30,989 nt of DNA from a virus, in IMG/VR virus record IMGVR_UViG_3300044972_000048, positions 1 through 30,989 of that record. The stretch is one strand, 5' to 3'. Of the stretch, positions 682 through 27,792 are shown piece by piece. The notes under the pieces were generated by a model. The model was not told where the DNA came from. It saw only the letters and a list, made by a program, of their open reading frames with translations, and did not search any database. Each line of letters starts with the position of its first letter. Position 1 is the stretch's first letter. A program made the translations under genes and the position numbers.

Positions 682-2481
682 ATGGCACTCTCAATGGAAC
701 AGGTCGCTGACAAGGTACTTTACCTACGCCAGCGATACTCAGTACGTGACCAGCGTATGGCTGATATCACTGCTGTACGCCGTGGTGACATGGTATCGGT
801 ATACCCAGACATGTTCCCAGAGGGCATGAACAAGCCGATGATTGCCAACTTCGTTGACGTTGTTGCTCGTGACTTGGCTGAAGTATTGGCTCCACTGCCA
901 TCGTTTAATTGTCAGACACCTGACGTAACATCTGACAGGGCAAAGAAGAACGCTGACTTGCGTTCCATGATTGTCAACAACTACGTTGAATTTTCTGGGT
1001 TACAAACCCAGATGTATACAGGCGCAGACTGGTATAACACATATGCCTTCCTGCCGTTTGTTGTAGAGCCTGACTTTGAGGCTCGTATGCCACGCATTCG
1101 TGTAGAAAACCCATTGGGTGCTTACCCAGAATATGACCGCTACGGACGATGTGTTTCATATAGCAAGCGTTACCTAAAGTCCATTGGTGAACTACTTGTA
1201 GAGTTCCCAGAGTACGAACGCCAAATCCTTGGTGGAGATGACCGCAGAGATATTGACCTCGGCACTCTACTTGATTTGATTCGCTACGAAGACAAAGACC
1301 AGGTAATCCTGTTCCTCCCACAGCGAGGAAACCTTCCCCTGCGCAAGGCAAAGAACCCACTAGGTAAACTAAGTGTGCGTATTGCTAAGCGTCCAGGCAT
1401 TGACACCGAAGACCCACGTGGTCAGTTTGATGATGTCATCTGGGCACAGATTGCTCGTGCTCGCTTTAGCCTTCTTGCCATGGATGCTGCTGAAAAATCA
1501 GTTAATGCACCTATGGTTGTACCACAGGATATGCAAGAGTTTGCATTCGGTCCTGATGCAGTTATGCGTACTGCAAACCCACAGGGTGTTCGCCGTGTTG
1601 GTCTAGAAATTCCTATGGGTGCCTTCCAAGAACAACAGATTCTTGAGCAAGAAATGCGCATGGGTGCTCGTTACCCAGAAGGTCGCTCAGGTAGCGTAAA
1701 TGCATCCGTAATTACGGGTTCTGGTGTTCAGGCACTTCTTGGTGGCTTTGATTCCCAAATCAAGGCTGGTCAGCAAATCCTTGCGGAAACATTGCAGGAT
1801 GTCATGGCACTAGCCATGGAGATGGACGAGAAGTTATTCGCTGGTGAAAAGTCAACACAGATGACTTACAACGGTGCACCTTACATTCTTAAGTACAGCC
1901 CAGAAAAAGACATTAAGAGCGACTACAGCGTAAATGTACGCTATGGTCTTATGTCAGGTCTTGACCCATCTCGTGCCCTTATCTTTAGCCTTCAGGCTTT
2001 ACAGGCAGACCTAATTTCACAAGAGTTCGTCATGCAGGAACTACCTTGGAACGTAAATGTATCCAAGGAGATTGAACGCATTGACATTGAAAAAATGCGT
2101 AGTGCATTAATGGGAGCACTAAGCGCAACGTCACAAGCAATCCCACAAATGGCTGCTCAGGGTCAAGACCCTTCAGACATTGTCATGAAGATTGCTCAGA
2201 CGATTGAAAACCGCCGTGGTGGTAAGAGTGTGGAAGATTCTGTTATGGAGGCTTTCAAAGCCCCAGAACCAGAGCCAACACCTGAGCAACCACCAGCACC
2301 AGAGATTCCAGGAATCCCAGGTACACCAGGCGTAGGAATCCCACCACAGTCCGCTCCAGGTGTGGAGGCTCCAGTTGAAGCACAGGCATCCGCAACTATG
2401 GGTGGTGCTCCTGTAGAAGCCCAGCCTGGAGCAACCCCTCCAGTAAACATTCAGGAAATCTTAGCCAGACTAGGTGGATAA
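682..2481 (+). CDS. Portal protein
   Basis: A 599-residue protein of typical portal size directly after the terminase. Portals form the twelve-subunit ring at the capsid vertex through which DNA enters and leaves. The N-terminus (MEQVADKVLYLRQRYSVRDQ, and NKPMIANFVDVVARDLAEVL near residue 55) resembles portals of podovirus-like phages in my recollection. The last 80 or so residues are unusual for the family core: rich in Pro, Glu and Ala, with PGIPGTPGVG and two APVEAQ repeats, ending in a short helix-like VNIQEILARLGG. This looks like a flexible tail with a terminal docking peptide. The start has AAGGAT six bases upstream. The stop overlaps the next ATG by one base (TAATG), suggesting coupled translation. 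Confidence 0.85.
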   Translation: MALSMEQVADKVLYLRQRYSVRDQRMADITAVRRGDMVSVYPDMFPEGMNKPMIANFVDVVARDLAEVLAPLPSFNCQTPDVTSDRAKKNADLRSMIVNNYVEFSGLQTQMYTGADWYNTYAFLPFVVEPDFEARMPRIRVENPLGAYPEYDRYGRCVSYSKRYLKSIGELLVEFPEYERQILGGDDRRDIDLGTLLDLIRYEDKDQVILFLPQRGNLPLRKAKNPLGKLSVRIAKRPGIDTEDPRGQFDDVIWAQIARARFSLLAMDAAEKSVNAPMVVPQDMQEFAFGPDAVMRTANPQGVRRVGLEIPMGAFQEQQILEQEMRMGARYPEGRSGSVNASVITGSGVQALLGGFDSQIKAGQQILAETLQDVMALAMEMDEKLFAGEKSTQMTYNGAPYILKYSPEKDIKSDYSVNVRYGLMSGLDPSRALIFSLQALQADLISQEFVMQELPWNVNVSKEIERIDIEKMRSALMGALSATSQAIPQMAAQGQDPSDIVMKIAQTIENRRGGKSVEDSVMEAFKAPEPEPTPEQPPAPEIPGIPGTPGVGIPPQSAPGVEAPVEAQASATMGGAPVEAQPGATPPVNIQEILARLGG

Positions 2482-2990
2482 TGACAACAATCATTGCCAT
2501 CAAAAAGGGTAAGAACTTTACATTTGCAGCAGATGCACAAGTAACTGATACTGAACGACCATACATGCACAAGAGTATGAAGAAGGTTGTTGAAGTTGGT
2601 GACTATGTTATGGCTGGTGCAGGTAACTCACGATGCTGTGATGTTATCTTGTACGGCTGGGAGCCACCATACTATGACGGAACAGAACACTACACCTTTA
2701 TGGTGTCAAAGTTTATTCCAGAGATGCGTAAGCAACATGAAGATGCTGGCATTACTTTAAAAGAAGATGAAGACTTTGTTTTCCTAGTTGGTTTCAACGG
2801 GAGAGTATTTCATGTTGCTGGTAATTATGCGGTACTAGAAACCAATACTGGTTTGTATGGCATAGGAACTGGCGCAGCGTACGCACTTGGTGCCCTTGCT
2901 CAAGGTGCAACCATTCCAGAAGCAATGAACATTGCTAAAAAATTTGATATTAATACTGGTGGAAAAATCCAGATAGTTGAAAGAGGATAA
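2481..2990 (+). CDS. Proteasome beta/HslV-like Ntn-hydrolase, probable head maturation protease
   Basis: The 169-residue protein looks like an HslV or 20S proteasome beta subunit of nearly normal HslV length. After removal of Met1 the new N-terminus is Thr-Thr-Ile-Ile. With that Thr as residue 1, Asp falls at 17 (in FAADAQVT) and Lys at 33 (in SMKKV), the family's catalytic positions. The GIGTGAAYALGA segment puts Thr at 129, where Ser129 normally sits. Members of the family use the N-terminal Thr as nucleophile and assemble into rings. No HslU-like or Mpa-like unfoldase is in the window. The position between portal and scaffold/capsid is where phages keep their prohead protease, so cleavage of scaffold or capsid is the likely role (inference). 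It is tightly coupled to the portal gene by TAATG. Confidence 0.85.
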   Translation: MTTIIAIKKGKNFTFAADAQVTDTERPYMHKSMKKVVEVGDYVMAGAGNSRCCDVILYGWEPPYYDGTEHYTFMVSKFIPEMRKQHEDAGITLKEDEDFVFLVGFNGRVFHVAGNYAVLETNTGLYGIGTGAAYALGALAQGATIPEAMNIAKKFDINTGGKIQIVERG

Positions 2991-2992
2991 TC

Positions 2993-3433
2993 ATGGCAAG
3001 AGGTGGATATCGCAAGCCAGCCAATCCTGCTCCAGTATCGGGTCCAGGTAAACTTTCTCGCCGTACTGATGGCGGACCAACGCAAGGCATGAAGAACATA
3101 GCAGCAGATGGTGTCTATGGTGAACGTAAGGCTCTAGCGGAAATGCAAAGTTCAGCACCTATGCAAGGAAACCCAACTCCTTCCATGCCATCACCACAAG
3201 TTTCTGCCACTGCTCCTGCAGCACCACAGCCTATGGCTGGGTTGTTTGACCCAACTCAACGACCAGAGGAACCAATTACTGCAGGTATGCCTTTTGGCGC
3301 AGGTAGCAACTACCCAACTGCAATGCCAGTTCAGATTGATGACACTGCAGCACAAATTCGTGCAGCCTATGCTTTATACCCCAATGAATCTCTTCGTGTA
3401 CTTCTTAATGCCCTAGAGAACGAAGGTCGCTAG
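2993..3433 (+). CDS. Small Pro/Ala/Gly-rich head-region protein, unknown function
   Basis: 146 residues, not assigned to a family. The N-terminus is basic (MARGGYRKPANP). A long low-complexity middle is rich in Pro, Ala, Met and Gln and is probably disordered. The end is a short helix-like stretch (AAQIRAAYALYPNESLRVLLNALENEGR). It starts three bases after the protease stop, and its TAG shares a base with the GTG of the giant downstream gene, so it belongs to the head operon. A minor virion or assembly protein is plausible; nothing in the sequence gives the function. Confidence 0.7.
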   Translation: MARGGYRKPANPAPVSGPGKLSRRTDGGPTQGMKNIAADGVYGERKALAEMQSSAPMQGNPTPSMPSPQVSATAPAAPQPMAGLFDPTQRPEEPITAGMPFGAGSNYPTAMPVQIDDTAAQIRAAYALYPNESLRVLLNALENEGR

Positions 3434-6400
3434 TGGCTAAAAAGAAAAAAAGTCTTTTTCAGCCAAAGGGTACTTTATTCACCTATGAGGACTGGAAGCC
3501 AAGCGGTAACAATCCTTTTGAGACACGACAGTATTCTCAGGAAGAATTAATTGACCAGTACAAAAAGATTTACTCGCAGACAGACTTGCCAGTTATCTTG
3601 TCACGTTACGCAGATAGTTTTCCACAGAACCCAGACATTGCTTTAAGTCTTGCCAAGAGTGGAACATCTGGCGATGCAGTAGGTGCAGCATCACGTCTTC
3701 AGACAATCCTTAACGAATCTATGTCTAGTAAGCCATGGGAAAGCAAAGATGGTCAAGTTAATAACATTGACTACAATGAATACCTAAAAGGTTTAAACAA
3801 AGACGAAGATACTGCAACTGAGCAAGACAAAGAAGATGCTGCATGGTTTGCTGCAATTAAACGTACATCACGTACTTTTTTAACACCTTTGTTTTCAGGC
3901 TACGAAGCCGCCGTAAACGTTATTCGTCAGATTGACGGTTATGCAAACCTAGATGAAAAGGGCATTAATTCACTTACCGACCCAGATAACGTTATAGTCG
4001 GTGGAGAAGATGCAAGTGACTTCACACGTATTTACAAAAACACAACACTGTATCAAAACACGGTTGAAGGTTTAGATATTGGAACTGGATTTATTCCAAG
4101 TGGTGAAGCGTATCAAACCAAGGAAGCGTTAACATCACGTGTAGCACGTGTTCGTTCTGCAAAGACTGGGCAGGAATACTTCTACACTCCTGGTCGTGGC
4201 ACAATTTCCGCACTAACAACTCTTGACCCAGAAGATACTGCATACAAAATTATCTCTGGAATTATTGACGGATTTTTTGCTGTTAGACTTGACCCAAGTA
4301 TTATTGGTGGCAAAGCAGCAGCAATTCGTTCTGCAAAAAAAGCAACTGAAAATCTACGTGGAGCAACAACTGCTGGAGGGGTTGCAAAAGCAACTGCAGA
4401 TGTAGCAGAAGAAATTGCAACTTATCGTGCTAACCTACCAAGTCGTGAGGCTCTTGAAGCACTAGAAAATCAAAAGTCTGCAGCAGCAGAACTTGATGAA
4501 GTGTATGCAAAAATTGCAGAGCAAAGAAATATTCTTAACAATGCAATTACTGAGGGAACTGTTGCAGAGCAACCTAAGGCTGTACAAGCCGCTATTGCAC
4601 GTTCTGGCTTAACACAGTTAAACGAAACTAAAACATCGTTATTGCAAAAGGTTGAAGACCAGAAAGTTCTCGCTACTGGTGTGGTGCTTGACCCTGCCAC
4701 TGGAACTCCAATGTCCAAGGCAGATTCACTTAAGTATCTTAAGCAGGAAATTAAGTCTGTTGATGACCAAATCAATACTGCACTTGATGGTATATACGTT
4801 ACAAGATTTAAAAAAGTTCGTGATACTTTAGAACTTAAAAAGTCTGCACTACAACAGGCAACAGACAATCTTGCACAAAAGTACAAAGAAGTTCAAGAGA
4901 TTGGCACTCCAGAAGCAAAGCAACGCTTTATTATGGAAGAACGTGCTGGTCTTCTTCAGGCTTCTGATGGCTACAAAGTAAATAAAGAAAAAGCCATTGA
5001 GTGGATTTTTGGAAAGAATGCAGATATTGTTCTTCAGCGTATTGCTGAAACTGAATCTCCTTCACAGATTATGCGCTTGTCAAAGAATAACTTTGACGCA
5101 GACCTTGCTAAAGAACTTGCCGCAGCGAAAACTGTAGATGAAGTTGAGGTCTTACTTCTTGGTCGTATTGGCATAGATGTTAATACAGCAATGCCACGTA
5201 CAGCCATTGGTCGTTACGTAGTTAACTCTAACCCTAACTTCATCATGAAGCCAAAGTCTTCTGTGCAAAATTTAACAAAATTTGGTCAGGCTTTAAAGTT
5301 CCTTGGAACTAGAATGCCAACACAAATGAGCATCAAACTTGATGACACAAATAAACTTGTTGAAGAAGTACGCAGGTGGATGATTGCCGCTCGTTACAAT
5401 GTTGATGATATTGATAAAGTTATAGATAACATTGTTAATGTAGACGAACTAGATTTTACAAATCGTCAGCGTGTAATTACAGGTATGCTTGATGATACAG
5501 TTCAAATGTACGCCAAGCAACAAAACATTAGCCCAAAAATTTTAGAAAAACTAACAGACTATACAACGGCTTATGACACCGCTTCAACTGGTGCTAAAGA
5601 ATACACATCACAAGCAATAGGTGACGTAGTAGGAAACCGAATAATTATTGATGGTGTTAAGTTTGATTTAACTGACCTGCCAACTTCAATTACTCAACTT
5701 GCTAATGAAATTTCACTACCAAATGTTTATGCAGTTCGTGAATTAACTGGCATCATGGCACGTACATCACGTTCAGTTGACAATATTATTGCCAAGGATT
5801 CAAGAATGGCAGAGCGTGCCACATTTGCTGCTACAAGATTTACTCGTAGTGTAACTGATGGCTTCTTGCGTAGCGTTCTTCTTGTTGGTCGTGTATCTTA
5901 CGAGATACGTAACGTTGCAGAAATGCAAATACGTATGTTTCTTGCTGGTGGCATAGGACTATTTACTAATCCAGTTAAATTTACTGCGCTAATTATGTCC
6001 AATCCAGAGTCTGCAAAAGCAATCGTAAAAAAGGCTGCAGCCAAAGACCCTTATCTTGTTGACATAAACGGAAAAGCATTTATGGGTGCAGAGCGCTTTG
6101 TCGCTGATGATACTCAAGCGTTCCATGATTCATTTGTTAATGTCATGGCAGAACGTGGATACTCACTTGAAGCACAAAACGTACGTGCTGCCCAGCGCAG
6201 TGGTGAGTACAACTTAATTAAATTAGATATTGCAAAGAATGGCACCCCAAGAAACGCTCAAGAGTATGCAGAAGCGGTGGCATCACGACTACTACAGCAT
6301 CATGCTGACCCAATTAAAAGAGCAATCGCCGTTAATAACGTAGATACATTGCCAAAGGGACTAGCCAAGGCAGTAAAAGAAAATCGCATGACCTACGAAG

Positions 6401-8757
6401 AAGCATTAATCCAGGCTATTCGTGATGGTGCATTCAAGAGACAAATTGATATCCTAGGTAAAGCAGAACCACAGTTACAAAAATTGTTTTCAATGGACAA
6501 TGGTATCCGAACCTTACTTTTTGGAAATACATCACGCTCTTACGCTCGTGAAATATCAGATGAAACTCTAGGCATTACAGAATTACGTGAGTTTATATCA
6601 ACTGGTAAAGTTGTTGAAAGAAAAGAAGCACTTGTAGACGGTGCATCCACCATTCAAGAACGTGTAGTCTTTGAAATGAGCAATGACTACATAAAGAACC
6701 ACCGTAAACTTACCAACATAATTAAAAACCAATTAATTGCTGATGATGTAGCAAAGACAAACGCATCTAGCCTATTCATGCCACATTCAAAGGGCATGGA
6801 AACTAGGAAACGTGAGAACTTCAAGAGTTACAACGCATTCGCAGACGCTTTCTTCCGTCAAGCAGCACGTGTTGAAGTTAGAACCGTATATGGTCCAGAG
6901 TATCGCATTGCATACTGGGAAGCCGTTGCTGAAATGGCTCCTATTATGTCAAGAGAAGCAGCCAGAAGCGTATTAAAAAATGCCGAAGACATCAAGAAGA
7001 CTAGGGTCGCAATAGAAGGTGAAGATGGTGTTATCACTTACCAGCCTTGGACCGAACTTAATCCTGCATTTAACGATATTATCCAAGCATCTAAAGATGG
7101 TGTTGGTAGATTAACAGTTAAAGATATTGATGCCTATGCACGAGATAAGGCTGCTAATAGAATTGCATCTTTGTTCTATGACGCAACTCAAAAGAATAAC
7201 CTTACCTATGCAGCACAGTTAGTTCTTCCATTTGTTAACGCCTGGGCTAATACCATCCGCAAGTGGTCGCAACTAGGAACAAATCCTAGCCGTCTTGCTA
7301 CTCGTGTTGCTCCTGCAACTAGGTTGTATCAGAACTTATTAAGCGAAGAAACTTCTGCAATATACGACTTTACTGGTACACCGCATGACCCAATGCAGGG
7401 ATTTATTTGGAATAACCAGTATGGAGATAAAGTATTTACTGTCCCTTTGAGTGGATACTTACGTACATTGTTTGGTCTGCGTGGCAATCCAGAAACAGCA
7501 GACGTTGCTATTCCACTTAAGTCGTTGAACCTTGCGTTTTCTGGTGCTGAACTTGCGGATAGTGACCTAGGTATTCTTCCAGGTTTTGGTACCGTATGGA
7601 ACATGGCATATGGTTCTCTAGATAATGAGATTCAAAACAAGGTACCTGATGTAATTGCTCAGATGATTGCGCCATATGGTACATCAGAAGGTAAGTACAT
7701 TGGCTTCCTACCAGCATGGATTCAAAAGATTGCTGCTGCATTGGTTGAAGATGAAAAGGCTTACGGTAAAACCGCTAAGCCAATCATGGCTTGGGAAGCA
7801 ACAACTAACCCTAAGTATAAAGTTCTTTACGATGGAACACCTTTAACCCCTGAAGACCGTGCAGCACTACAGGCTGACCTAGCAGGTTACGGTCTAAGTC
7901 GTGCACGTTTTGCATACTTAATGCAGGGATTGTTACAGAACGTATCACCAGGTACACCACTTTACGAATACTACGCACAGAACGAAAATGGCGATACGTT
8001 CATGCAGTGGCAAATGGCTGATTCTTTCAACAAAATTGTTGAACAACATGATGGAAACTTTGAAACCGCATGGGCTGAGTACACTGCAGTATGGGGACGT
8101 AACGCAGTCCTTATTGGTTTCAGCGATAACAAGAACCAAGTCTTTGCAAACGATGATGCTTGGAACTTTGGAAAGAATAACCCATCATTGTTCGGTGCTT
8201 ACGGAGACGTAATCCCTTACTTCTTTACTGGTGGAGACTTCTCTTCAGAGTACCGCAAGGCGATGGAACGCCGTGGCAAGGGTGACCGCTTAACTCCAGA
8301 AGAAGTATTAAAGGAAGCGGACCGTCTATCCATGACAGCAATGCGTGGTCAGTTGGCTATTGAAGCAGTATACAATGGCTTTGATGCTAACTGGATTGAT
8401 GACCAGATGAAGGCTTACAAGTCTGATGTCTTGCAGGGATACGAGCCAGAAGTAACAATTAATGTTGGTGCTCGTGACCAAAAGATTATGCGTATTCAGT
8501 CAGCACTAAAGAAGCCAGAGTTTGCTAACACTGATGCTGGTCAGGTTGCGTTAATTTACTTTGCAGAACGTGATAAGTGGCTTGAGCAATCCAGATTGTA
8601 CTACCCAGACCGTGATAAGCCATCACTATCTGGTCAAGATAATGCCGAAGCACGTTATCGTTTGCGAGTAATGGCAGAACAATTAAGCGCAAATAATGAT
8701 GACTTTAAAAATATGTTTATTCGTGTTCTTGCACAAGAACTCAGGGAAGAGGATTAG
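3433..8757 (+). CDS. Giant (1774-residue) virion protein, probable internal/ejection protein
   Basis: The largest gene here, about a sixth of the window. It starts with GTG, with GAAGG a few bases upstream. Features by residue: Lys-rich start (AKKKKS); an Asp/Glu-rich region near 110-140; long Ala/Glu/Lys/Gln helices, probably coiled coil, about 300-480; a basic then hydrophobic segment about 800-855 (FLRSVLLVGRVSYEIRNVAE, then FLAGGIGLFTNP), the longest candidate membrane-interacting part; an aromatic-rich C-terminal half. No protease, lysozyme or polymerase motif was recognised. Podovirus internal (ejection) proteins are often of this size, and no tape-measure gene exists elsewhere in the window, so an ejection protein is the best guess. 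A large minor head protein is the alternative. Confidence 0.75.
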   Translation: MAKKKKSLFQPKGTLFTYEDWKPSGNNPFETRQYSQEELIDQYKKIYSQTDLPVILSRYADSFPQNPDIALSLAKSGTSGDAVGAASRLQTILNESMSSKPWESKDGQVNNIDYNEYLKGLNKDEDTATEQDKEDAAWFAAIKRTSRTFLTPLFSGYEAAVNVIRQIDGYANLDEKGINSLTDPDNVIVGGEDASDFTRIYKNTTLYQNTVEGLDIGTGFIPSGEAYQTKEALTSRVARVRSAKTGQEYFYTPGRGTISALTTLDPEDTAYKIISGIIDGFFAVRLDPSIIGGKAAAIRSAKKATENLRGATTAGGVAKATADVAEEIATYRANLPSREALEALENQKSAAAELDEVYAKIAEQRNILNNAITEGTVAEQPKAVQAAIARSGLTQLNETKTSLLQKVEDQKVLATGVVLDPATGTPMSKADSLKYLKQEIKSVDDQINTALDGIYVTRFKKVRDTLELKKSALQQATDNLAQKYKEVQEIGTPEAKQRFIMEERAGLLQASDGYKVNKEKAIEWIFGKNADIVLQRIAETESPSQIMRLSKNNFDADLAKELAAAKTVDEVEVLLLGRIGIDVNTAMPRTAIGRYVVNSNPNFIMKPKSSVQNLTKFGQALKFLGTRMPTQMSIKLDDTNKLVEEVRRWMIAARYNVDDIDKVIDNIVNVDELDFTNRQRVITGMLDDTVQMYAKQQNISPKILEKLTDYTTAYDTASTGAKEYTSQAIGDVVGNRIIIDGVKFDLTDLPTSITQLANEISLPNVYAVRELTGIMARTSRSVDNIIAKDSRMAERATFAATRFTRSVTDGFLRSVLLVGRVSYEIRNVAEMQIRMFLAGGIGLFTNPVKFTALIMSNPESAKAIVKKAAAKDPYLVDINGKAFMGAERFVADDTQAFHDSFVNVMAERGYSLEAQNVRAAQRSGEYNLIKLDIAKNGTPRNAQEYAEAVASRLLQHHADPIKRAIAVNNVDTLPKGLAKAVKENRMTYEEALIQAIRDGAFKRQIDILGKAEPQLQKLFSMDNGIRTLLFGNTSRSYAREISDETLGITELREFISTGKVVERKEALVDGASTIQERVVFEMSNDYIKNHRKLTNIIKNQLIADDVAKTNASSLFMPHSKGMETRKRENFKSYNAFADAFFRQAARVEVRTVYGPEYRIAYWEAVAEMAPIMSREAARSVLKNAEDIKKTRVAIEGEDGVITYQPWTELNPAFNDIIQASKDGVGRLTVKDIDAYARDKAANRIASLFYDATQKNNLTYAAQLVLPFVNAWANTIRKWSQLGTNPSRLATRVAPATRLYQNLLSEETSAIYDFTGTPHDPMQGFIWNNQYGDKVFTVPLSGYLRTLFGLRGNPETADVAIPLKSLNLAFSGAELADSDLGILPGFGTVWNMAYGSLDNEIQNKVPDVIAQMIAPYGTSEGKYIGFLPAWIQKIAAALVEDEKAYGKTAKPIMAWEATTNPKYKVLYDGTPLTPEDRAALQADLAGYGLSRARFAYLMQGLLQNVSPGTPLYEYYAQNENGDTFMQWQMADSFNKIVEQHDGNFETAWAEYTAVWGRNAVLIGFSDNKNQVFANDDAWNFGKNNPSLFGAYGDVIPYFFTGGDFSSEYRKAMERRGKGDRLTPEEVLKEADRLSMTAMRGQLAIEAVYNGFDANWIDDQMKAYKSDVLQGYEPEVTINVGARDQKIMRIQSALKKPEFANTDAGQVALIYFAERDKWLEQSRLYYPDRDKPSLSGQDNAEARYRLRVMAEQLSANNDDFKNMFIRVLAQELREED

Positions 8758-10897: not shown

Positions 10898-10943
10898 AGT
10901 GAGACATGTACGAACAACAACTAATGTAAGGGAGATAGTTGCG

Positions 10944-11447
10944 ATGAGCAACAATAATCAAGACTGGTTAGACGAAGATGACTTTGACTTTGACGATGAT
11001 GTAGAGGAAACCTCTTCACGTGGTCGCAATAGCGATGACGTTTTGAAGAAGGTACGCCGTGCAGAACGTGCGAAAGACAAACAACTCAAAGAGTTGCAAT
11101 CCGAATTGGAAGCATTGCGCAAGTTCCAACGGGAAGCAACAATCAGCCAAGTCTTGGCGGAGAAAGGTGTCAACCCAAAGGTTGCCAAATTCATTCCAGC
11201 AGATATTGAAATGTCCTCGGACAGCATCAGTAACTGGCTGACTGACAATGGTGAACTATTTGGTGTTGCTGCACCTGTACAACAATCAGCAGAACAAAGT
11301 GAAAACTTTGCTGCTTTGCGTCAAATAGATGCAGTAACATCTGGGGCTATTTCTCCAGATGATGTTAATGATGCATTCAACATCATGAATAACGCTGGCT
11401 CTGCAGAGGAGTTATTAAACTTCCTCTACAGCCAAGGCGTTGAATAA
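10944..11447 (+). CDS. Scaffolding protein
   Basis: 167 residues with the layout of phage scaffolds: a strongly acidic N-terminus (DEDDFDFDDDVEE), then a charged helix likely to form a coiled coil (about 30-65, KKVRRAERAKDKQLKELQSE), then a short C-terminal helical domain. It lies directly before the major capsid gene, the usual place. It would guide prohead assembly and then be removed, possibly cut by the proteasome-like protease (inference). The frame is open to a GTG at 10899, but ATG 10944 is preferred because GGGAG lies just upstream and the extra N-terminal residues do not look like the family. Confidence 0.8.
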   Translation: MSNNNQDWLDEDDFDFDDDVEETSSRGRNSDDVLKKVRRAERAKDKQLKELQSELEALRKFQREATISQVLAEKGVNPKVAKFIPADIEMSSDSISNWLTDNGELFGVAAPVQQSAEQSENFAALRQIDAVTSGAISPDDVNDAFNIMNNAGSAEELLNFLYSQGVE

Positions 11448-11481: not shown

Positions 11482-12492
11482 ATGCCGAATACAGGCTTAT
11501 CAGGTGGTAGTGCCGCAACTAACGGTGGTCTTGGTGGTGGCGCTTACGCTTCCGCTAACAACGTTGGTGCTTTCACTCCATCAAACGCCGCAGGTCTAGT
11601 TCAGAAGGCGTACGACCGCCTTGTTGAATTTGAACTACGTGCAACCCCATTGCTACGTTCAGTAGCAGACAAGAAGCCAGCACGTCAGGCAATGCCTGGT
11701 TCAAGTGTTGCGCTACAAATCTACAACGACATGGCTGTTGCTAAGACTGCCCTTTCAGAAGATGTAGACCCAGCAGCAGTATCACTTGCTACTCCAGACA
11801 TCGTTAACGTAACTCTAAATGAGTACGGTAACGCAACTGTAGTAACTCGCAAGTTGCAGTTGCTATCTCTTGCTGACGTTGACCCTGCTGTTGCAAATAT
11901 CATTGCATTCAACATGGCTGACAGCATTGACGAACTAGCACAGGATGCACTACTTGCAGGTACTAACGTACTTTACGCAACTGGTGGAACAACAACCGCA
12001 ACAACAACCTCAGGTATCACTGCAGATGACACAATCACTGCTGCTGACATCCGCAAGGCTGTTGCTAAGTTGCGTACCAACAAGGCTAACGGACGTAAGG
12101 GTTCAATGTACTGGTGTGGTATTCACCCAGAAGTTTCCCACGACCTTCGTGCCGAAAGTGGTTCAGCCAACTGGCGTTTGCCACACGAGTACTCAGCACA
12201 GAGCAACATCTGGGCTGGCGAAATCGGAAACTTTGAAGGTGCTTACTTCATTGAATCCCCTCGTCTACGCAAGGCTGCAAATGGTGCAGACAGCATCAAC
12301 ACCTACGCAACATTCCTTGCAGGACAGCAAGCACTTGCTGAGGCTGTAGCCGAAGAACCACACGTGGTTATCGGTCCAGTCGTTGACAAGTTGATGCGTC
12401 AGCGTCCAATCGGTTGGTACGGTGTTCTAGGACACGCTATCTACCGTAATGATGCGCTGTTCCGCATTGAGTCTGCTTCAAGCATTGCTTAA
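11482..12492 (+). CDS. Major capsid protein (HK97-fold type)
   Basis: 336 residues, directly after the scaffold. The N-terminus is Gly/Ser/Ala-rich (about 1-35), then a helix (LVQKAYDRLVEFELRATPLL). Beta-rich stretches follow (VNVTLNEYGNATVVTRKLQL), a long helix (NIIAFNMADSIDELAQDALL) and a late VDKLMRQRPIGWYGVLGHAI. This resembles N4-gp56-like and other actinophage capsid proteins from memory. AAGGAAA precedes the ATG. Two hairpins follow the gene. The identity is strong from context and fold pattern, but the exact family was not checked. Confidence 0.85.
   Translation: MPNTGLSGGSAATNGGLGGGAYASANNVGAFTPSNAAGLVQKAYDRLVEFELRATPLLRSVADKKPARQAMPGSSVALQIYNDMAVAKTALSEDVDPAAVSLATPDIVNVTLNEYGNATVVTRKLQLLSLADVDPAVANIIAFNMADSIDELAQDALLAGTNVLYATGGTTTATTTSGITADDTITAADIRKAVAKLRTNKANGRKGSMYWCGIHPEVSHDLRAESGSANWRLPHEYSAQSNIWAGEIGNFEGAYFIESPRLRKAANGADSINTYATFLAGQQALAEAVAEEPHVVIGPVVDKLMRQRPIGWYGVLGHAIYRNDALFRIESASSIA

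Positions 12493-13388: not shown

Positions 13389-13389
<1 letters not shown>
13048..13389 (+). CDS. Ig-like baseplate/fibre-attachment protein (BppU N-terminal-like)
   Basis: 113 residues, wholly beta-rich. [20 protein letters not shown] at the start, [15 protein letters not shown] in the middle, and [20 protein letters not shown] followed by FIVSAEVTQ at the end match the pattern of the N-terminal immunoglobulin-like domain of phage baseplate upper proteins. It sits directly before the collagen-like fibre, sharing a base through TAATG, so it may anchor that fibre to the particle. Confidence 0.65.
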
Positions 13390-14969
<1,580 letters not shown>

Positions 14970-15304: not shown

Positions 15305-16369
15305 ATGGTTAAGATTGCAGTCTATGCTATAGCCAAGAATGAGGCTAAGCACGTTAAACAATGGGTAGAGGCAACCAAGGGTGCTGATGTCCGAATTGTC
15401 CTAGATACTGGGTCAGAAGATAGCACCTATGACCTACTCCAGAAGTACCCCGTAGAAGCCCACAGAGCCACGCTAAGCGACTTTAGGTTTGATGTGGCTA
15501 GGAACATGGCACTGGACCTTATACCTGCTGACGTGGACGTGTGTGTCTCCTTGGACATGGACGAGGTTCCTGACCCTGACTTCTTTGACAAGATACGACA
15601 GGCTTGGCAGCCTGATACTGGTAGGGCTTGGGTCATGTGGGACACGGGCAATATCTGGGCTAACAACAACCGTGTCCATGCTAGACATGGATACAGGTGG
15701 CGTTATCCTTGCCACGAGGTTATCCAACCTGATGGTCCAGATAACTTGATAGTCGTTGAGACCTTGGTTACCCATAAACCAGACAACGACAAACCACGTA
15801 GTAGTTATCTAACACTGCTAGAACTGGGACACAACGAAGACCCAACTGACCACCGTATGATTGTCTACCTAGCCCGTGAGTATTACTTTAAAGGTTTGTG
15901 GCGAGAACTGATTGACGTTGGCAAGAAGTTGGAAGATATTCCTGGTTGGAATGTTGAACGTGCTCAGACTTGGCGAGGTATAGGCGAAGCCTATTGCAAG
16001 TTAGGTAATGACCGTGAAGGTCTTCACTGGTATCAACGTAATGTTGAAGAAGCACCTAACGACTTAGAGGCTTGGATGCCTTTGGCTTTCTACTATTACG
16101 AACGTAAGATGTGGAACCACTGCTACCAAGCAGCAATTAAAGTAACTGAACTTTCCCTTGAGTCCCATAACCATTATGTGGCTGACCAATCAATGCCATG
16201 GAGAATGTACGACTTGCTCGCTGTTGCATGCTGGAACCTAGATAAAAAAGGTTCTGCTAAGAAGTATGCACGTAAAGCAGTTGAACTTAATCCTGATGAT
16301 GAACGTCTAGTTAAAAACTATGAGTTCATTGTAACGCAGACGGCTAAACAATTCAAGGATAAACAATGA
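15305..16369 (+). CDS. Glycosyltransferase family 2-like protein with TPR tail
   Basis: 354 residues. Residues 1-110 look like a GT-A glycosyltransferase: VYAIAKNEAKHVKQWVE at the start, DTGSEDST at 34-41 for nucleotide-sugar binding, and the metal-binding DMDE at 84-87. From about 195 to 345 there are helical TPR-like units (WRGIGEAYCKLGNDREGLHW, and YDLLAVACWNL followed by AKKYARKAVELNPDDERL). This GT2-plus-TPR architecture also occurs in enzymes that glycosylate proteins. Placed between fibre and neck genes, it may modify a virion protein or host surface glycan (inference). It starts 22 bases after the microprotein with AGGA upstream, and overlaps the next gene by ATGA. Confidence 0.85.
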   Translation: MVKIAVYAIAKNEAKHVKQWVEATKGADVRIVLDTGSEDSTYDLLQKYPVEAHRATLSDFRFDVARNMALDLIPADVDVCVSLDMDEVPDPDFFDKIRQAWQPDTGRAWVMWDTGNIWANNNRVHARHGYRWRYPCHEVIQPDGPDNLIVVETLVTHKPDNDKPRSSYLTLLELGHNEDPTDHRMIVYLAREYYFKGLWRELIDVGKKLEDIPGWNVERAQTWRGIGEAYCKLGNDREGLHWYQRNVEEAPNDLEAWMPLAFYYYERKMWNHCYQAAIKVTELSLESHNHYVADQSMPWRMYDLLAVACWNLDKKGSAKKYARKAVELNPDDERLVKNYEFIVTQTAKQFKDKQ

Positions 16370-26456: not shown

Positions 26457-26964
26457 TGTAGTCCTTCGCCTCAGGGAACGTGTTATCTAAAATCATAACA
26501 CCAATAACCCCATAGTTGGCGATGTCCACGAACGTGTCCCTAAGGGACTCATTCTCTGGCTTAACCCCTGATTCTATAAGGTTAATCAGCCGTGACATCT
26601 TGTCGTACAGTCGTACCTGTAGCCCATTGAGCGGTCCACCTGGCGCATTGCGTATGTTGTTAGGACCATAGTCGCTTTGCTTCTTGATTAGGATATCCCA
26701 TAGTTCTTCATACACATCAAGGGAATCTAACTCAAAGTCCTCAGGGTATAGGTCTTCCCATGCGGTAAAGGTAACACACGCTTCGCATATGCAGTCATCC
26801 TCTATCTCAAAGGCATCCTTGTTATCTCCAATGTTAAGGTCTCCCTTGACTCTGTTAAGCCAACTCTGGAAATCTTTAAGCCCATCTCCGAAAGCCTCCC
26901 AATCAGAAACGTTATCTCTTCCTGACTGAACGTAGTCATCCCACTCATCCTTCATATGGCTCAT
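26446..26964 (-). CDS. DUF1599/Nmad1-type (MazG-like fold) protein with cysteine cluster
   Basis: 172 residues. The C-terminal part (about 85-160) carries ILIKKQSDYGPNNI, LYDKMSRLINLI and LRDTFVDIANYGVIGVMIL. This matches the all-alpha DUF1599 (nucleotide modification associated domain 1) pattern, with acidic residues for metal binding. The family is linked to nucleotide or base-modification gene sets. The N-terminal 80 residues are acidic with C58, C60 and C63 (CICEAC), probably a metal site. ATGA overlap with the TOPRIM gene; a second ATG three codons in is possible. Confidence 0.75.
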   Translation of the reverse strand: MSHMKDEWDDYVQSGRDNVSDWEAFGDGLKDFQSWLNRVKGDLNIGDNKDAFEIEDDCICEACVTFTAWEDLYPEDFELDSLDVYEELWDILIKKQSDYGPNNIRNAPGGPLNGLQVRLYDKMSRLINLIESGVKPENESLRDTFVDIANYGVIGVMILDNTFPEAKDYNES

Positions 26965-27578
26965 GCTGATACCTTGCTCCTTAAATAGTCATACCCTTGT
27001 GATAGGTACATTGAATTAACGTCTTCACCCTCTGGCATCTGCAGTGTAACTACTGATGAAAGTTCTTTGGCGAGGTTCTTTGCGAAGTCTGACCCTGGTT
27101 GGTCACCGTCCGCAAAAACATAAACCGTTTCAAAGTCTTGGAGGATGCGTGAGTAATGTTTCTTCCACGAGTTCGCACCAGGTACACCCACAGCAGGGAT
27201 GCCACACTTGTAATGCAAAGTAATCGCATCAATCTCACCCTCACATACTGCAATGTAATCTCCTGCTGATTGTAGTGCTGTTACGTTGTATAAACGGGTA
27301 GAAGTCCCTGGTAAACCCATGTATTTGGGTTCGCTGTTGTCCATGCTACGGAACCTAATGTCAACCACACCTGTTGGTGTGATGTACGGAATAACCAAGC
27401 GACCAACGTATGCCTCGTGACTAGGTAGAGGTTCTGCGACTACTCCGAGGTGGGCTGTAGCCCCGTCTTCTAGAGATAATCCCCTCTTGGCTAGATACCC
27501 TTCGGCTAGATGAATGTTTGCCTTGTATGTTGCCACGGCTTTCGCCAGTGATTGCTTCTGCGATTGTGATAGCCTCAC
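26961..27578 (-). CDS. DnaG-type primase, TOPRIM catalytic part
   Basis: 205 residues. The TOPRIM signature is clear: E113-G-E115 in AVCEGEIDAITL and D157-G-D159 in VFADGDQPGSDFAKN. Upstream lies a primase-typical linker (YLAKRGLS, then GRLVIPYITPTGVVDIRFRS). It makes RNA primers for lagging-strand synthesis together with the helicase encoded upstream. The GTG start has AAGGAG nine bases before it, although both lie inside the CHC2 gene. The two frames overlap by 158 bases, so the primase is either split into two chains or fused by frameshifting. Confidence 0.85.
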   Translation of the reverse strand: MRLSQSQKQSLAKAVATYKANIHLAEGYLAKRGLSLEDGATAHLGVVAEPLPSHEAYVGRLVIPYITPTGVVDIRFRSMDNSEPKYMGLPGTSTRLYNVTALQSAGDYIAVCEGEIDAITLHYKCGIPAVGVPGANSWKKHYSRILQDFETVYVFADGDQPGSDFAKNLAKELSSVVTLQMPEGEDVNSMYLSQGYDYLRSKVSA

Positions 27579-27792
27579 GGAATCCCACTCCTTCTTTCTC
27601 CATAATTATTTTATAGGTGTCACCCTTGACTCCGCAAGCATGACATGCGAACACGTTCTCTGTTACGTTGACACTAGCAGATGCGGTTGAATCCTCGTGA
27701 ACTACACACTTAATCTTTTGCCAGCCCCATGTTTCACGTATGTTCGTTGCACCGTAGTGTTCAAGCACAGGTTGTATGCTGTGCTTTTCCAT
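27421..27792 (-). CDS. Primase CHC2-type zinc-finger part
   Basis: 123 residues. Zinc ligands C29-x2-H32 (KCVVHED) and C50-x2-C53 (FACHACG) are spaced as in the CHC2 finger of DnaG primases, followed by the usual GDTYKIIMEKEGVGFREAIT helix. After about residue 83 the sequence becomes Arg/Ser-rich (SSSRRVSSQEG, SRRRGYSPPRSSRRTST) and does not look like a primase. This is exactly where the TOPRIM frame is already open. The tail may simply be the read-through of a split gene or a basic DNA-binding tail. It starts in a TAATG overlap with the Hjr-like gene. Confidence 0.85.
   Translation of the reverse strand: MEKHSIQPVLEHYGATNIRETWGWQKIKCVVHEDSTASASVNVTENVFACHACGVKGDTYKIIMEKEGVGFREAITIAEAITGESRGNIQGKHSSSRRVSSQEGIISRRRGYSPPRSSRRTST

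Follow-up and report, generated by a model that had tools for sequence, protein, structure and literature searches.

What does a proteasome-like protein do in the head gene module of a phage? The question is raised by a viral stretch of 30,989 nucleotides (IMG/VR record IMGVR_UViG_3300044972_000048, positions 1 to 30,989; hereafter the window), in which a plus-strand open reading frame at 2481..2990 encodes a putative proteasome/HslV-type Ntn hydrolase of 169 aa (hereafter Ntn) directly behind the portal gene. The position behind the portal is where many phages keep their prohead protease. The reading frame is intact, with an ATG at 2481 whose A is also the final letter of the portal's TAA stop, 169 codons and a stop at 2988-2990. 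Given this one-base overlap (TAATG), the two proteins are probably translated together.

The neighboring genes, all on the plus strand, are those of a head module. The portal protein (682..2481) ends in the one-base overlap described above, and g146 (2993..3433; PHROG 8200, function not assigned), which has homologs in Streptomyces phages, forms the downstream border of a variable slot. It is followed by a 1774-aa protein (3433..8757) that by synteny is probably an internal or ejected virion protein, a scaffold-like protein (10899..11447; PHROG 7813, with weak head-scaffold matches), and the major capsid protein (11482..12492). The preliminary description placed Ntn between portal and scaffold, which is literally so, although four other genes intervene before the scaffold. 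Further downstream, the window contains a collagen-like tail fibre (13389-14969) whose G-P-T/G-X-T repeats are long and, downstream of the capsid genes, a region in which TPR repeats adjoin a weak glycosyltransferase-2 match (15305-16369). The primase on the minus strand (26961-27792) consists of two ORFs overlapping by 158 bases. In Streptomyces phages Dennebes and Manuel the primase is likewise encoded by two CDSs, which overlap by 149 bases and stand in an identical frame relation; a conserved frameshift or overlapping genes are possible explanations of the split. PADLOC gave no match.

Sequence profiles and the predicted structure agree on the fold, and we therefore assign the ORF at 2481-2990 as a predicted Ntn hydrolase of the HslV/BPH type. 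Residues 1-167 match PHROG 1040, the "peptidase HslV family", with an E value of 3.4e-34. The NCBIfam HslV models are matched at ~1e-8, with 34.3 of 137 bits and 33.1 of 157.75 bits, far below the curated HslV equivalog cut-offs, and the Pfam Proteasome model is matched weakly and under its cut-off (0.0055; 16.8 of 22.4 bits). BPH is also matched at the sequence level. When the family profile was compared with known structures, HslV (3.5e-13) and BPH (7e-12) were found well ahead of the actinobacterial proteasome subunit PrcB (only ~1e-4). Hallmarks of PrcB are missing from the window protein, which starts with MTT and has no propeptide. The AlphaFold2 model (pLDDT 88.8) predicts the Ntn fold, a beta-sheet core with two flanking helix pairs. 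A Foldseek search with this model returned BPH and HslV as the best structures (E ~1e-10, TM 0.7-0.78), along with many phage proteins, mostly unnamed. The earlier proposal of a complete protein of the proteasome/HslV type, made from the sequence without database searches, thus holds up in the intact ORF, the profiles and the model.

An inspection of 128 distinct homologs indicated that the active site is kept. The nucleophile Thr1, which would be exposed once the initiator Met is removed, is a threonine in 127 homologs and a serine in one, Asp17 is present in 128/128, and Gly47 in 126/128. The position of Ser129 holds T in 72 and S in 55, and the Ser169-like position T in 105, C in 11 and S in 9. 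The preliminary description had placed the proteasome catalytic residues at Thr1, Asp17, Lys33 and a Thr at 129; the first two are nearly invariant and position 129 is T/S, whereas the lysine was off by one. Mature Lys33 (residue 34) varies among homologs (A/V/R/K/T/P), and the lysine found in 128/128 of them is residue 35, mature position 34, owing to a one-residue insertion. Only 12 of 200,000 composition shuffles of the window Ntn reproduced the T/D/K/G pattern. Against 13 relatives the dN/dS of Ntn is ~0.05-0.13. These comparisons point to purifying selection on Ntn and to retention of its catalytic residues, which argues against a dead decoy.

Proteasome homologs of phages are already known, both published (PMC8665760) and catalogued (PHROG 1040). 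Fuchs, Alva and Lupas (2021) described the AAH and PPH proteins of phages, for which no function is known and no AAA+ partner was found (PMC8665760). Like the window Ntn, these are compact group I proteasome homologs carried by phages (PMC8665760). PPHs comprise ~140 aa and lack H2 (PMC8665760), whereas the window protein has 169 aa and a helix in the H2 position, helices 50-59 and 70-88 both being present in its model; by these two features it is not a PPH. As a further difference from PrcB, nothing follows the final core strand in the model, where the proteasome subunit has the C-terminal S12/H5 elements. AAH, with which the window Ntn was compared by description only, is reported to be absent from actinobacteria-specific phages (PMC8665760). 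The window Ntn shares with BPH and HslV its best fold and profile matches as well as Thr1, Asp17, the lysine and Gly47, but it is only ~20-24% identical to them and scores far under the HslV cut-offs. No HslU partner ATPase was found among the genes searched in the window, itself a fragment, in line with the earlier remark that no unfoldase lies nearby. BPH has no apparent unfoldase for its action either, as we propose for the window Ntn. The proteins of PHROG 1040, matched over nearly the full length, share fold and catalytic residues with the window Ntn; in the annotated phages examined they are accessory and lie outside the head genes. The window gene differs from them in its position between portal and g146, its late operon, and its occurrence in freshwater actinobacterial phages. 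Our literature searches yielded no work on what a phage HslV-like protein does, and the papers found report no function for any phage proteasome homolog.

The window portal and capsid proteins are ~45% and ~55% identical to those of Streptomyces phages (Beephvirinae), and 55% and ~60-66% identical to those of phages E7 and F5, whose isolation host was Ca. Planktophila LanE-43 (PMC10202952). E7 and F5 (OX376640, OX376641) carry an Ntn ortholog of ~35% identity directly after the portal, as in the window; unlike the window, they have an extra small ORF between Ntn and g146, and their host is known. The E7 capsid protein (L058:17567-18757) has a large insertion near the C-terminal third that is absent from the window capsid. 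Two scans of genome contigs, based on alignments of Ntn and of the portal, yielded no confirmed relative. Because its relatives infect Ca. Planktophila and Streptomyces, the window phage likely has an actinobacterial host.

Many actinobacterial species have proteasomes. With sister phages infecting actinobacteria, Ntn might therefore co-assemble as a decoy or modifier with the host proteasome (PrcA/PrcB) or a related particle and redirect it. We consider this unlikely, since the family matches HslV/BPH far better than PrcB, a propeptide is missing, the strictly conserved catalytic residues would be needless in a passive decoy, and homologs occur in phages of hosts outside the Actinobacteria, the Ntn relatives found including those in phages of E. 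coli, Salmonella, Vibrio and Geobacillus.

Is the gene a fixed part of the head module? We surveyed the slot behind the portal in contigs retrieved by portal similarity only; all counts refer to the matches listed and are not population frequencies. Among these, 45 of 90 informative aquatic contigs have no Ntn after the portal. Sorted by portal identity, again among the matches listed, Ntn occupies the slot in 13/13 contigs at an identity of at least 80%, in 16/52 at 60-80%, in 16/25 informative ones at 50-60%, and in 0/43 below 50%. Where Ntn is lacking, g146 either follows the portal immediately or is separated from it by a small ORF; the Streptomyces phages have unrelated tiny ORFs and no Ntn in this slot. 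At L207:6749-6982 (77 aa) and in L058 after 8033, a small ORF of no assigned family takes up all or part of the slot, and a similar one is apparently found in E7 alongside the Ntn gene.

Some relatives apparently lack the gene altogether, and others carry it elsewhere. Whole-record searches with the family profile, PHROG 1040 and Pfam found no Ntn in G002 (39.3 kb, near-complete) and G006 (37.4 kb), metagenomic records without end repeats in which a copy may have been missed. Both hold structural and replication genes, including a capsid protein 84-85% identical to that of the window. In three further records (G003, G004 and G005) the whole-record search located Ntn and the portal on opposite strands, with an M23 lysis gene and a sigma factor near Ntn in the first two. 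A divergent homolog in G001 lies in the replication module between a DnaB-like helicase and a nuclease. As judged from these genomes, Ntn is an optional and apparently swappable accessory gene at several genomic sites in related phages.

These distributions bear directly on the earlier suggestion of a self-assembling head maturation protease, which would cut the scaffold, the portal or capsid N-termini as the head assembles. The location directly behind the portal with the TAATG overlap, the presence of Ntn in every portal-derived locus listed at 80% portal identity or above, and the lack of another head protease among the window genes searched all fit such a role. G002, however, has no detectable Ntn, yet its scaffold is homologous and its capsid protein, of 85% identity, shares the N-terminal extension of the window protein, while E7 carries Ntn but has a short capsid N-terminus. 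Ntn is likewise not retained with the homologous portal, scaffold and capsid set of the Streptomyces phages or with the homologous head genes of G006, and other relatives encode it on the opposite strand in other modules. We considered the capsid N-terminal extension as a protease-linked pro-region; it is absent from the Streptomyces phages but is kept in the Ntn-less G002 and short in the Ntn-bearing E7 and G015, and is thus independent of the presence of the gene.

More distant family members point the same way. Psychrobacter phage D'Alembert encodes an Ntn homolog together with an S49-type head protease, and the HK97-type contig L130 one together with an S78 head protease. In annotated phages the homolog lies by the RNR, DHFR and thymidylate synthase genes (Salmonella phage S124), ThyX (Microbacterium phage Pumpernickel), PhoH (Vibrio phage 166E36-1) or WhiB (actinophage DSL-LC01), or in the early strand (VpV262). 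All of these are distant relatives, which inform on the family and are not proof for the window. Given the close relatives with a missing or relocated gene and the two phages with an S78 or S49 enzyme, we regard a head maturation protease as unlikely; it keeps some probability because, in the close clade of the window, Ntn is invariably present and its start overlaps the portal stop.

The gene also has a history of its own. In L036 the portal is close to that of the window (dS 0.26) and the Ntn distant (dS 1.08), whereas in L045 the portal is distant (dS 1.67) and the Ntn closer (dS 0.68). In L009-like loci Ntn is 95% identical, yet the adjoining giant protein has no detectable match. This discordance in dS and the swapped neighbors indicate that Ntn recombines independently of the portal. 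The 1774-aa ORF (3433-8757) is unmatched in most of L009-L023, whose Ntn proteins are 86-95% identical, likely reflecting a wholesale swap of this probable internal virion protein.

The replaced neighbors also bear on the idea that Ntn is not a general peptidase but a processing or ligating enzyme with one specific substrate. The monomeric ligase connectase belongs to the same fold family (PMC8665760), and no unfoldase was found nearby, as would fit such an enzyme. The model, however, shows no clear insertion of the connectase type between strands 3 and 4, and since neighbors are replaced while Ntn remains ~95% identical, the neighboring protein is unlikely to be the specific substrate. We give this idea little credence.

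We therefore favor, as the probable explanation, a catalytically competent, horizontally exchanged accessory threonine peptidase of the HslV/BPH branch that acts inside infected cells with no unfoldase dedicated to it. This accounts for the fold seen in profiles and prediction, for catalytic residues that are conserved, for purifying selection, and for a gene that is optional, lies at several locations and is exchanged independently. In the window phage, expression would probably be late, as Ntn lies directly behind the portal gene. Removal of the initiator Met would expose Thr1, and the subunits would probably form a closed or ring-like particle, as in HslV or BPH. Inside the infected cell, and without a dedicated phage unfoldase, such a particle could degrade host or phage proteins that are unfolded, damaged or specifically targeted, and may in this way benefit the phage. 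What speaks against a purely accessory gene is that in the close clade of the window Ntn is always found directly behind the portal with translational overlap, which suggests a tie to late expression.

New here are the occurrence of Ntn in a clade of freshwater actinophages, its place between portal and g146, and its clear mobility. A bolder idea, which we hold to be doubtful, is that actinophages have repeatedly acquired a stand-alone, ATP-independent mini-proteasome at several sites, here under late head-operon control, that would clear or process host or defence proteins. The clade offers a natural comparison between related phages with Ntn behind the portal, elsewhere or absent, to which the two isolates on a cultured host, the Planktophila phages E7 and F5, can be added. 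As Ntn illustrates here, a location in the head module does not make a head gene.
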